Shown here: piece by piece, positions 1,568-60,570 of the stretch | How positions within the stretch are numbered: the first letter of the stretch is position 1 | Layout of the letters: the number at the start of each line of letters is the position of its first letter | NCBI RefSeq assembly: GCF_033115175.1 | Contig: NC_084837.1 | Coordinates: 88,114,966 to 88,178,965 of the forward strand | Length of the DNA: 64,000 bases | Source of the DNA: Lepus europaeus | Lineage: Eukaryota > Chordata > Mammalia > Lagomorpha > Leporidae | Direction: 5' to 3' | Notes under the pieces: generated by a model | Seen by the model: only the letters and a program-made list of their open reading frames with translations | What the model was told of the DNA's origin: nothing | The model's database searches: none | Program-made: the position numbers and the translations under genes

Positions 1568-2211
1568 CTCTATGTAACTTTTAAATTAAAAAGTTTAAAG
1601 CTGTGCAAAGGTCGCAGGGCTGTTTGTTCACACCCCCCCCCCCCACACACACACACGCACACGATACTGAAAGTCCTTGTGAAGGTGTTCGCGGATTTCT
1701 GCCCGGTTGTAAATGGCAGTGGCCTGCAGGAGCTGGGCATGGTCTGGTTTGTCCTGGGCCACAGTGCAGTGCCACGCCGGGTGGGATGCCTGATGGCCTC
1801 TTCTCTTTGGCTTTCCCTTCCCTTGGCTGTCCAAGGACCCCAGGCCACAGGACAGCCCACTGCTCTCGCAGCTTTCAGCACTGTGTTGCTGATGGAAATC
1901 TCTGACTGTGGCTCTGTTTTGCTGGTGCCTGACTTCAGGCTCCCCCAGGCTGAGCACCCACGTGCTCAGGCTGCAGAGGAGCGTGGAGCATCTGTATGGG
2001 AGTGCAGACATCAGCAACCGCTCTGGATTAAAATCAAAAGGTCTCATCAAAAGCTCAGCCCGGGGAAGGTGGGCATTCTAACAAACAGCTAAGAGGACAG
2101 GGAGGCTAAGTGCATAAAAGAAATCCTGGAGGTGAGCTCCAAGGGCCAGAGTGCTTATGGAAGCCAGTTTTGAAACGCTCTGTACTTATTTCTTTCTTTA
2201 AGATCACCTAG
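1568..2211. other. Non-coding stretch with C/CA-rich simple repeat
   Basis: Contains a poly-C plus CA run at 1628-1662, otherwise unique-looking. In unit 2 this stretch is split at 1814 by the provirus. The reading frames in it are not conserved proteins I recognise. Confidence 0.6.
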
Positions 2212-17340: not shown

Positions 17341-18200
17341 CAGCAGCAAGATGAGCGGCACAGAGGCTGGAAGACGGCCGCGGCTCACCCACTCCGGAGA
17401 GGCCCGGACGGCGGGCTCGGGGTCCAGCTCGTCGGACTGCTGGAGAGCGGGCGAGAGCAACATGCTGGAGAAGACGGAGCGGCTGGTCACCGTGAACGCC
17501 GTCTACCGCTGGCCGCTGCGGGTCGTGAGAGAACACTACCTGCGGCCCTGCGTGCCCTGCAGCAGCGCGCTGTGCTCCCAGCCCGAGCGCTGCCGCAACG
17601 GTCAGAGACGCTGCGGGGCCGGGCGGGCGGGCGGCGCCGGGAGGCCGCGCGGTGCGGGGCGGGCGGCGGGAGAGGCGCGGCCGCGGCTCCGAGGCGGGAG
17701 CGGCGCGGGCTCGGGCGCTCCGGACCGCTCGGCGCTGCGAGCCAGGCGCGCTCTCGTCGGCCGGGGCTCGGGGCGGGCGGCGCGGGCCTGCGGCGGCCAG
17801 GGCCGGAGCGGCCAGCCCCGCGCACGGGCTGAGGCGGGCTGCGGGCTCCGGCGCGCGCCGGGGCGCGGCAGAGGCTGGCGCCGCCCACTCGGCTGTGGGG
17901 GGAGGCCGCCTCCCGGCCGGGCGCGCGTGCCGGGCAGCTGGTGTGGAGCCGTGCGCGCCAGACCTTCCCCTCCGGGGCTCTCCGCGGCGACGCCGGTCCC
18001 CGCCCCGCAGGACACGGGGGGCGCAGCCGGGGCCCCTCCACGCAGCTCGGGCCAGGGCGGACAGCGCTGCGCGGCTCGTGGCTTGCACCGGGCAGCCCGC
18101 CCTGCCGGCCCTGGGCTTCCCTCCGAGCTGAGCTTGCGGGGCGTCCGCAGGTGTGCACGCTCGGACGTGGACAGCCGCCCACCCCGCGGAGCCCACATTT
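17340..18200 (+). promoter_or_regulatory. CpG island over exon 1 of DIS3L-like A
   Basis: Abrupt change to very GC- and CpG-rich sequence covering exon 1 and the first 600 bases of intron 1. This is typical of a housekeeping-type promoter. The same island is kept in unit 2 (59705-60570), so both copies have a promoter-like start. CpGs have not visibly decayed, which suggests germline hypomethylation; that is an inference. Confidence 0.8.
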
Positions 18201-40445: not shown

Positions 40446-40697
40446 TCTATGTAACTTTTAAATTAAAAAAAAAAAGTTTAAAGCTGTGCAAAGGTCGCAG
40501 GGCTGTTTGTTCAACACCCCCCCACACACACACACACACACACTAGATACTGAAAGTCCTTGTGAAGGTGTTCACGGATTTCTGCCTGGTTGTAAATGGC
40601 AGTGGCCTGCAGGAGCTGGGCATGGTCTGGTTTGTCCTGGGCCACGGTGCAGTGCCACGCCGGGTGGGATGCCTGATGGCCTCTTCTCTTTGGCTTT

Positions 40698-41091
40698 TGT
40701 GGGGAAATTAGTTACATGATGGTGCCCAAAGGAAGTAAGGTGGGCAGAATCCAAAGTTGTTTACCACTAAAACTAATTGGCTGCGCAACATCAGGGGAGG
40801 TAACAAAACTAGTAACAAGTGTATAGACATATGGCTAGTCCTATAGAAATCCCCCCGTAAGGTGATTTTTTAAGTGATTGGTTGGTCCTTAGCCCTGCCC
40901 CAATGACTCTGCAGTTTTGTGCTATAAAAGGTTCTGTTTCGCACGAAGTAAATGAGTCCTTGCTAGACTTGGCTCCCCGCTGCGTCTGATTGTCTCCGAA
41001 ATCGGGAGGCTGGGGAACGTGCGAGCGGCGCACTTACCTTTCCTCGGACCCAGTCCATCCTGTACGGGTGGGGGTGGACTAAGACCCAGCA
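40698..41091 (+). repeat. 5' LTR of the provirus
   Basis: Runs from TGTGGGGAAATTAG to AAGACCCAGCA with a TATAAAAG box at 40923. About 394 bp and nearly identical to 43193-43581. Confidence 0.9.
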
Positions 41092-41092
41092 T

Positions 41093-41110
41093 CTGGCGCC
41101 CAATGTGGGG
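41093..41110 (+). other. Primer-binding site, tRNA-Lys type
   Basis: TGGCGCCCAATGTGGGGC, next to the 5' LTR end. It matches the lysine tRNA 3' end used by betaretroviruses. Confidence 0.85.
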
Positions 41111-41479
41111 CACGAGCAGTTACTTTTCGGTCGAGGCCAAGCGGTCTCTCAGGGTAAGTGAAACCTTAGTATGGGTAATGCAATTTCATCCAAAGTGGAC
41201 CAGGCCTTAAAGGCCTTACAGGACTTGGGAGAGTTCAGAGACTCAAAGGAAGATGGCGGGGAAAGAGAATGGGCTAAATTTAATCAAAAAGCAAAAACTA
41301 AAGTAAAAGTCACCCCGCCTAGCCCATCCACTCCAGAAGGGCCGGAACCCCCCCATACCTCCTGGGGGCAGAGGCGGCCTCCCCCTATGTAGAGCCGCGG
41401 AGGGAGCTACCTGATGCGGACCCTTCCGATTGCCCGGGAGGAGGGAGGAGAAATGAGGTAACCTGTGCGGGAGCACCCG

Positions 41480-42750
41480 CTGGCATGGTGGCGGCCATGC
41501 CGCCCGCTCTGCTGGTGCTGCTGCTCCTGGGGCCAGGCGGCGGGGGCCAAGCAGGGCCCCCACACAATACCCTGCTGGAGGATCATCCCACTGCCTTCCG
41601 GGGACATGGCTGCCGCCTTCCAAGGCCCCTGGGCGCACCTGTTGCACAGCCTCACCCACCTCGCCGAGGGCTGCTGCGCGCTGGCCGCATACCTGGCCGG
41701 CCCGGACCCCTCGCGGTCGCCATCGGAGCCGCGCCTGGCCGTGGAGCTGGGTGGCACCGCAGCCCCCTCGCACCTGGACAAAGCAGTGCGCGTACTTCGC
41801 TGCACCCCGCAACGCAGAGCATGGAGCCCGGCGGGGACCACCGGAGCCGGAGCAGCGGCGGCAGGGGCAGCCCCAGGCCAGCAGTGGCCTCAGCATGGGG
41901 CAGACAGCTGCTGCCCACCGAGTCAAGCAGCGGCGCGGACCGGGAGGACGACGATGGCGATAAGCACTGGCGCCGGGCCCGGGCGGGAGCCCCGATGTGG
42001 GGGAAGGGGAGGGCTGAGGTTCCAGGCCCCTCTTTCCACCGCGGAACAAAAGCGGGAGATCTGGGGCCGGGAGAGGAGAGGCTGGGGAGACTCGCGGAGA
42101 GGCTGCGACGGGGAAGCGGGCCGGCCGCGGACCCCGGTCCGAGGGTGCCGAGCGAGCACGCGCCTTGCAGCCCCGCGGTGCTCCCACCGGGTATGGGGCG
42201 CTCCGCAGCCGCCTGAGGCTGGGGCCTGGCCCGGCCTCCCGAGGACTCACTGGACCTGGCCAGAGGCGGAGGGCGGTACGTCGCAGGACTGGGCAGGCAC
42301 CAGTTTGGAGCGCGGCAAGCAGGCACGCCGGGAGGATACCTGTTCCTGGCCCTTCTGCTGCACGGGCTGGGAGAGGGTTGACAACACCCACCCATACCGC
42401 GCCTTCCCCATGGCCCTGGTCTACGTGCCCATCACGTCCCAGGGCAAGGCGACCAGCCTGCCCAGGACTGCCTGCAGCTCCACCTCCTGGAGACGCTCAT
42501 TCAGCTGCCTGCCAGCTCCATCACCAAGGTCTCCATCCAGTTTGAGTGGACCATGCTCAAGTGGACTGAGTACACTCCAGACCCCAGTCATGGCTTTTAT
42601 CCTCAATCCAGCTACTTGGTGAGACTGTACACAGAACTGCTGCTGGCGAGCCTGCCCACGCAGGACTACAATGTGATCTGCGTGTGCTACGGCTCCTTCT
42701 CTACATCGAAGAACCTAGCAGCGGCGGCCTGGCCAAGAGGCTGGCCTAAA
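41480..42750 (+). pseudogene. PIGT: Captured host sequence: PIGT cDNA pieces around other GC-rich sequence
   Basis: At 41485 the sequence encodes a PIGT-like signal peptide (MVAAMPPALLVLLLLGPGG; human, from memory, MAAAMPLALLVLLLLGPGG), followed by a PLPSGD match. From 42383 short matches to the PIGT C-terminal half occur in order: [23 protein letters not shown] (42557), [17 protein letters not shown] and GGLAKRL (42726). These span several PIGT exons without introns, so the source was spliced RNA. PIGT is a subunit of the ER GPI-transamidase. The pieces are incomplete and interrupted, so no working PIGT is encoded. The middle, about 41620-42370, is not PIGT. Confidence 0.82.
41815..41960 (+). 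pseudogene. ZFTA: ZFTA (C11orf95)-like N-terminal fragment inside the provirus
   Basis: At 41821 the sequence encodes MEPGGDHRSRSSGGRG, followed by a PAVASA stretch and an acidic run. This agrees with my memory of the start of human ZFTA, a zinc-finger nuclear protein known from ependymoma fusions. If right, the provirus holds pieces of two unrelated host transcripts. The match is short and from memory. Confidence 0.5.
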
Positions 42751-43192
42751 GGAACAATCTTTAAAAGAAAAAGGGGGCACCAACCCCCCTCTCAATGGGT
42801 GTGTGAGACTACGGGGATGGGTCATTGGATTAGTCAAAAGGTTCTCAGGAAAAAATCTGGAATGGATGTCAAATTGTTAATGAGACTTTGGGCCAATGGG
42901 TGGCACCTCAGAAGGGAGGGATGTTTTTGTTATGCAGGGCTACAGACTCACACCTTGTATTTCCATAGGGGTATTGGTGCACAACAATGATTCCTGCGTG
43001 CTAGTGTCCCTCATCCTCCACGTACTGTAACCACGCTCCCATAATTACAAGTCACGTGACACCCCAAGACGGGTAAAGCACCCTGTACCAACCTAAGACA
43101 GGGCTCACAGCCAAGCTGCCTGGGTACCAATGACGGGTAAGGGCAAGGACGGATGGGGGCAAATAAGACAGGGACCGCGTGCTAAAACAAAA

Positions 43193-43581
43193 AAGGGGGA
43201 AATTAATTACATGATGGTGCCCAAAGGAAGTAAGGTGGGCAGAATCCAAAGTTGTTTACCACTAAAACTAATTGGCTGCGCAACATCAGGGGAGGTAACA
43301 AAACTAGTAACAAGTGTATAGACATAGGGCTAGTCCTATAGAAATCCCCCCGTAAGGTGATTTTTTAAGTGATTGGTTGGTCCTTAGCCCTGCCCCAATG
43401 ACTCTGCAGTTTTGTACTACAAAAGGTTCTGTTTCGCACGAAGTAAATGAGTCCTTGCTAGACTTGGCTCCCCGCTGCGTCTGACTGTCTCCAGGATCGG
43501 GAGGCTGGGGAACGTGCGAGCGGCGCACTTACCTTTCCTCGGACCCAGACCATCCTTGTACGGGTGGACTAAGACCCAGCA
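43193..43581 (+). repeat. 3' LTR of the provirus
   Basis: Preceded by a purine tract (AAAAAAGGGGG) and ending AAGACCCAGCA, followed by the GCTTT target duplicate. Confidence 0.88.
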
Positions 43582-43981
43582 GCTTTCCCTTCCCTGGGCT
43601 GTCCAAGGACCCCAGGCCACAGGACAGCCCACTGCTCTCGCAGCTTTCAGCACTGTGTTGCTGATGGAAATCTCTGACTGTGGCTCTGTTTTGCTGGTGC
43701 CTGACTTCAGGCTCCCCCAGGCTGAGCACCCACGTGCTCAGGCTGCAGAGGAGCGTGGAGCATCTGTATGGGAGTGCAGACATCAGCAACCGCTGGATTA
43801 AAATCAAAAGGTCTCATCAAAAGCTCAGCCCGGGGAAGGTGGGCATTCAAACAAACAGCTAAGAGGACAGGGAGGCTAAGTGCATAAAAGAAATCCTGGA
43901 GGTGAGCTCCAAGGGCCAGAGTGCTAATGGAAGCCAGTTTTGAAACGCTCTGTATTTCTTTCTTTATTTAAGATCACCTAG

Positions 43982-59705: not shown

Positions 59706-60570
59706 CAGCAGCAAGATGAGCGGCACAGAGGCTGGAAGACGGCCGCGGCTCACCCACTCCGGAGAGGCCGGGACGGCGGGTTCGGGGTCCAGCTCCTCGG
59801 ACTGCTGGAGAGCGGGCGAGAGCAACATGCTGGAGAAGACGGAGCGGCTGGTCACCGTGAACGCCGTCTACCGCTGGCCGCTGCGGGTCGTGAGAGAACA
59901 CTACCTGCGGCCCTGCGTGCCCTGCAGCAGCGCGCTGTGCTCCCAGCCCGAGCGCTGCCGCAACGGTCAGAGACGCTGCGGGGCCGGGCGGGCGGCGCCG
60001 GGAGGCCGCGCGGGGCGGGGCGGGCGGCGGGAGAGGCGCGGCCGCGGCTCCGAGGCGGGAGCGGCGCGGGCTCGGGCGCTCCGGACCGCTCGGCGCTGCG
60101 AGCCAGGCGCGCGCTCGTCGGCCGGGGCTCGGGGCGGGCGGCGCGGGCCTGCGGCGGCCAGGGCCGGAGCGGCCAGCCCCGCGCACGGGCTGAGGCGGCC
60201 TGCGGGCTCCGGCGCGCGCCGGGGCGCGGCAGAGGCTGGCGCCGCCCACTCGGCTGTGGGGGGAGGCCGCCTCCCGGCCGGGCGCGCGTGCCGGGCAGCT
60301 GGTGTGGAGCCGTGCGCGCCAGACCTCCCCCTCCGGGGCTCTCCGCGGCGACGCCGGGTGGCCGCCCCGCAGGGCACGGGGGGCGCAGCCGGGGCCCCTC
60401 CACGCAGCTCGGGCCAGGGCGGACAGCGCTGCGCGGCTCGTGGCTTGCACCGGGCAGCCCGCCCTGCCGGCCCTGGGCTTCCCTCCGAGCTGAGCTTGCG
60501 GGGCGTCCGCAGGTGTGCACGCTCGGACGTGGACAGCCGCCCACCCCGCGGAGCCCACATTTCTCGCAGC
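59705..60570 (+). promoter_or_regulatory. CpG island over exon 1 of DIS3L-like B
   Basis: Same island as at 17340. An 11-bp direct repeat (TTGGACAACTT) just upstream, at about 59668, is present here and not in unit 1. Confidence 0.78.

Follow-up and report, generated by a model that had tools for sequence, protein, structure and literature searches.

How pieces of host genes come to stand between the ends of a retrovirus is the question raised by positions 40698-43581 of the window, a stretch of 64,000 nt from Lepus europaeus. The first-pass annotation read this interval as a provirus fossil that had picked up intronless PIGT sequence. The interval is an LTR element, a small inherited retrovirus remnant in which most viral genes have been replaced by scraps of host genes (Table 1).

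Table 1. Features of the element and its empty counterpart in window coordinates. PIGT residues are numbered according to P0001, a 578-residue PIGT.
Feature	Position	Strand	Remarks
Empty target site, duplicate unit 1	1810..1814	.	
Left copy of target duplication	40693..40697	.	GCTTT
5' LTR	40698..41091	+	TG...CA
Primer-binding site, tRNA-Lys(1,2)-like	41094..41111	+	TGGCGCCCAATGTGGGGC; 10-base core occurs once on the window + strand
Splice-donor-like GTAAGT (strong)	41154..41159	+	Ahead of gag start; by inspection
Gag-like start, 73 codons	41171..41392	+	MGNAIS (myristoylation-like); no family match
PIGT residues 1-33	41485..41583	+	Signal peptide
PIGT residues 36-49	41582..41623	+	Other frame; 8-nt deletion ahead
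DNAAF5 (HEATR2) residues 67-175	41609..41806	+	Deletions of 15, 78, 3 and 36 nt; initial five codons shared with the end of the PIGT match
ZFTA (C11orf95) start (probable), ~48 codons	41821..41964	+	tblastn with provisional sequence
GC-rich stretch, 418 nt	41965..42382	+	Begins beside GGCG/ATAAGC; no Pfam match
PIGT residues 374-407	42383..42448	+	Gaps of 9 and 3 codons
PIGT residues 417 to ~543	42454..42699	+	Gaps of 34, 4 and 7 codons
PIGT residues ~553-566	42705..42746	+	IEEP...KRLA; other frame; similarity stops before the PIGT stop codon
Presumed viral 3' sequence	42747..43183	+	No Pfam family at cut-off
Polypurine tract	43184..43199	+	By inspection
3' LTR	43200..43581	+	First few bases mismatch 5' LTR
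Right copy of target duplication	43582..43586	.	GCTTT

Structure and integration of the element

The element is bounded by paired LTRs with TG...CA ends, although the first bases of the 3' LTR are not TG. The LTRs were 95.7% identical by BLAST, in keeping with the matching pair of the first-pass annotation. The full-length MAFFT alignment had one gap and 15 differences at 389 aligned sites (3.9%). In the ungapped core (40705-41040), which excludes the alignment ends with their gap and mismatched first bases, 8 of 336 sites differed (2.4%), three of the eight being adjacent. No second copy of the element was found within the window by BLAST.

The window contains a large segmental duplication, positions 1-21644 corresponding to 38902-64000 in six blocks, each between 1.8 and 6.0 kb long, with ~96-97% identity and spaced 38.9-42.3 kb apart. 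The appearance of the C-repeat SINEs would suit a rabbit-like host. The 5-nt GCTTT occurs on both sides of the element and only once in the duplicate unit 38.9 kb upstream, which has the same flanks but no element. The integration was therefore later than the duplication, as had been proposed from the empty site. The flanks of the two units differed at 2.4% of aligned sites (43/1789 and 54/2267), with 12 gaps in ~4 kb, and the core LTR divergence of 2.4% fits an integration date close to the duplication. The whole-alignment LTR divergence exceeds that of the flanks; under a strict clock, the integration would look older than the duplication, contrary to the empty site. Gene conversion, between the units or between the LTRs, may have occurred.

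A primer site and a polypurine tract were located by inspection. The lysine-type primer site of the earlier reading is present, and its type is taken to be Lys-1,2. The 73-codon frame reported as a gag start was likewise found; the label 'gag' derives from its position and its N-myristoylation-like beginning, and Pfam gave nothing for this frame at E ≤ 1. In the 440 nt ahead of the polypurine tract, no Pfam family reached the cut-off and only sub-cut-off matches were seen. Comparison of the gag start and an LTR stretch with viral contigs, a collection from which records near the host genome may be left out, gave no relative. No pol family was detected by Pfam in the frames scanned, in agreement with the first reading. 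The Rfam search gave no match and the tRNA scan no hit. A betaretrovirus-like affinity is at most a suggestion, the Lys-type primer site being the one feature that fits it.

PIGT sequence in two blocks

The insert matched the Pfam family Gpi16 (E 1.1e-10) and PIG-T chains in the PDB (E 1e-27), which confirmed the proposed similarity to PIGT. The PIGT score of 91 bits compares with a maximum of 24 in 300 shuffles of 41401-42800. The signal-peptide part matched more weakly, with E 0.003 in one search and 5e-5 in another. Within the PIGT parts the frame shifts three times, and eight deletions were counted by us from the alignment to P0001. The second block, ~118 codons remaining of residues 374-566, reads as joined coding sequence.

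The pieces do run in order from the signal peptide to about residue 566, as first described, but they do not make up one PIGT copy. Residues 50-373 have been lost, their place being taken by 759 nt of non-PIGT sequence, and on this ground capture of PIGT as a single gene was rejected. A weak second match resembling the PIGT signal peptide was seen at 42217-42252 (9/12 residues, E 1.8), perhaps another PIGT piece.

Other host sequences in the middle segment

The 759 nt between 41623 and 42383 have ~70-77% GC. The match of the beginning of this segment to DNAAF5 came from a protein search with a composite query, of which the first 130 residues were scored. The sole protein returned from 1620 candidates was DNAAF5/HEATR2 of Chrysochloris asiatica; its E of 0.46, in a database of 5.8 billion sequences, was not significant. 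Against the window alone, this protein matched 41609-41806 with E 1.25e-8 and 49.1 bits, the next-best match scoring 26.6 bits, and the maximum in 300 dinucleotide shuffles of 41401-42800 was 30.4 bits. With a provisional human DNAAF5 sequence the score was 45.6 bits, against at most 28.0 in shuffles. The significance of the DNAAF5 match thus holds only against the window and the shuffles. The alignment passes through AFQGPW, AEGC.ALA, LAV.LGGTA and AVRVLRCT. For the same region, an earlier protein search had no hit at E 0.001 among 119 candidates, the PDB search gave no match, and neither did Pfam, although Pfam has a DNAAF5 model.

The following piece, reading MEPGGDHRSRSSGGRG..., is probably the start of ZFTA, as judged against a provisional comparison sequence rather than a database record. 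In tblastn, this provisional human ZFTA sequence scored 60.4 bits over 41821-42090, a span trimmed by eye to 41821-41964; the shuffles (300) reached no more than 34.9 bits, and the next matches in the window 29.5 bits. The provisional sequence carries a Spin-doc zinc finger, as fits ZFTA, which lends it support, though not in its N-terminal part. ZFTA itself was not returned among the 1620 candidates of the protein search. A literature comparison of ZFTA peptides gave no match, and the N-terminal sequence was not found in passages of PMC8795269 and PMC12431856. Weak matches to the provisional ZFTA sequence, of up to 29.5 bits, were also seen in both duplicate units (17570-18060 and 59860-60480). 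These are most likely compositional and may reflect the CpG island of a resident gene.

The motif GGCG/ATAAGC, which follows the ZFTA piece, is one base off the splice-donor consensus. The remaining GC-rich stretch is possibly intron 1 of ZFTA, in which case the source was not mature mRNA. The description of the insert as intronless cannot be extended to its middle part, where a splice donor or intron may have been retained near the ZFTA piece; such a donor would argue against purely mature mRNA as the source.

Host coding sequence thus lies between the viral 5' and 3' ends. On these alignments, the insert comprises pieces of at least two unrelated host genes, PIGT and DNAAF5, and probably of a third, ZFTA, identified by the provisional sequence. 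With PIGT and DNAAF5 enclosed by an LTR pair and a 5-nt duplication, retroviral capture of host sequence, as first proposed, gained support. Apart from PIGT residues 374-566, the pieces lie toward gene starts (PIGT 1-49, DNAAF5 67-175 and ZFTA 1-48).

Age of the capture

To compare the decay of the insert with the age of the LTRs, PIGT columns in which P0001 and human PIG-T agree were considered. The window differed at 12 of 86 such columns, a set that excludes PIGT 1-49, the block NTHPYRAFP and columns beside gaps. The NTHPYRAFP block (nine residues) was identical to P0001, no human row being printed for it. With rates of 1.2-2.0% per site, corresponding to half of the core and half of the whole LTR divergence, and an assumed 2.25 nonsynonymous sites per codon, 2.3-3.9 differences were expected (P 6e-6 to 7e-4). 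Some of the 12 changes could be rabbit-specific. Deletions were also denser in the captured parts (12 by our own count) than in the LTR pair, with its single gap, or in the ~4 kb of flank. The excess of PIGT changes over the LTR age and the density of deletions indicate that capture and decay probably predate the present integration. In that case the element would have passed through several cycles of replication, at least two, or a donor copy would have persisted for a long time.

Origin of the mosaic

The element seems to document how a retrovirus took copies of parts of cellular transcripts into its own genome. It is probably a defective retrovirus-like element (ERV) made by template switching among several host RNAs. 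Reverse transcription would have started on viral RNA packaged together with host RNAs, and the reverse transcriptase would have jumped, at short matching stretches, from PIGT to DNAAF5 and probably to ZFTA RNA. It would then have returned to PIGT and passed on to the viral 3' end. The LTRs, primer site, leader, gag start and polypurine tract would have been kept, and with these the element could have been copied by the proteins of a full helper virus. Deletions and changes would have accumulated before a single copy inserted in one of the two duplicate units.

The joint between PIGT and DNAAF5 (41609-41623) is as expected of such a jump. Judged from the proteins rather than the parental DNA, both genes align over the same five codons, AAAFQ, with 5/5 residues for DNAAF5 and 4/5 for PIGT. 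Counting against template switching among host RNAs are the lack of a family match for the gag and 3' parts and the whole-alignment LTR divergence, which is higher than that of the flanking units.

A stepwise origin, in which PIGT was captured alone and DNAAF5 and ZFTA were gained in later cycles, perhaps as a selected chimeric protein, is unlikely but fares best among the alternatives. It would account for the hand count of deletions in the PIGT and DNAAF5 parts, 9 of 12 being multiples of three (P 0.004), although gap counts of this kind, made on protein alignments, are biased toward multiples of three. It would also account for an open frame of 386 codons (41462-42622), a length reached in 0/300 plus-strand shuffles and in 1/300 when both strands of the core were considered; the frame had no match in the PDB. 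However, GC-rich coding DNA opens long frames. One of 417 codons lies on the - strand (41243-42496), opposite the captured coding pieces, and is probably a by-product of the GC-rich DNA. A continuous chimeric protein is further opposed by the three frame changes in PIGT and by the ZFTA piece, which is in a different frame from that of DNAAF5.

Assembly at the DNA level, with first-exon or CpG-island pieces joined by repair in a provirus copy or its cDNA, is slightly less probable still. The high GC content of the middle, the intron that may adjoin the ZFTA piece and the location of three pieces toward gene starts would all suit it, and the PIGT/DNAAF5 joint is compatible with this route as well as with RNA template switching. 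PIGT is a multi-exon gene, and the joined coding sequence of its second block is unlikely to have come from genomic DNA.

That an L1-made PIGT retrocopy landed in a provirus which then decayed around it, the alternative raised in the first-pass annotation, is highly improbable: the PIGT pieces are ordered and look processed, but inspection and a repeat search revealed neither a poly(A) at the joint nor an inner target duplication, the PIGT similarity breaks off ahead of the stop codon, where different sequence takes over, and another gene, DNAAF5, lies inside the PIGT copy.

Beyond template switching as the origin of this one element, a broader scenario can be put forward tentatively, as somewhat doubtful. 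A mammalian 'pack-ERV' lineage, dependent on a helper, might have shuffled host first-exon pieces by repeated template switching and replicated as a mosaic over many cycles, its chimeric frame possibly being selected, before seeding the lagomorph germ line.

Comparison with known systems

Work on host-gene capture by retroviruses has usually concerned oncogenes that were under selection. A mosaic passed on in the germ line, of genes without obvious benefit to a virus, would show capture unfiltered, including the sites and number of jumps and the use of nascent RNA. Among the acute transforming retroviruses, several carry two captured genes, for example AEV, MH2 and E26. The element resembles them as a defective retroviral genome in which host sequence replaces viral genes. 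These viruses are exogenous and have kept growth-control genes functional, whereas the PIGT, DNAAF5 and ZFTA pieces are short, deleted and inherited.

According to the available portion of PMC5408686, host mRNA is packed by chance, and template switching at microsimilarities can in theory occur several times. LTR-mediated retroposition in metazoans (Tan et al. 2016, as cited in the portions available of PMC5408686 and PMC8232201) likewise copies host mRNA between LTRs at microsimilarities, which is the arrangement proposed here. Mammalian retrocopying is described as dominated by L1 (PMC5408686, same portion). Among the matches listed for the open-licence literature, as represented by titles and abstracts, there was no mammalian ERV with several captured genes or with PIGT.

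Germline ERVs with captured host mRNA are described for crocodilians, CrocERV29 carrying KIT-ligand and CrocERV31 nectin3 (PMC4299795, available portion). The same portion reports one host gene in each, with intact ORFs, purifying selection and several copies. In contrast, the hare element holds fragments of at least two genes and is known from one copy.

Maize Bs1 is an LTR retroelement with segments of three cellular genes (available portions of PMC13317346 and PMC5408686). As in the hare element, the segments come from unrelated host genes and none is full length, the third gene here, ZFTA, being a probable one. Bs1 is a retrotransposon of plants, and both transcription and translation have been reported for its chimeric gene (PMC13317346, in the portion available), whereas the present element is a mammalian ERV-like provirus with its captured parts in several frames. 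The mosaic would be a mammalian counterpart of Bs1, and with it an LTR-element route to exon shuffling.
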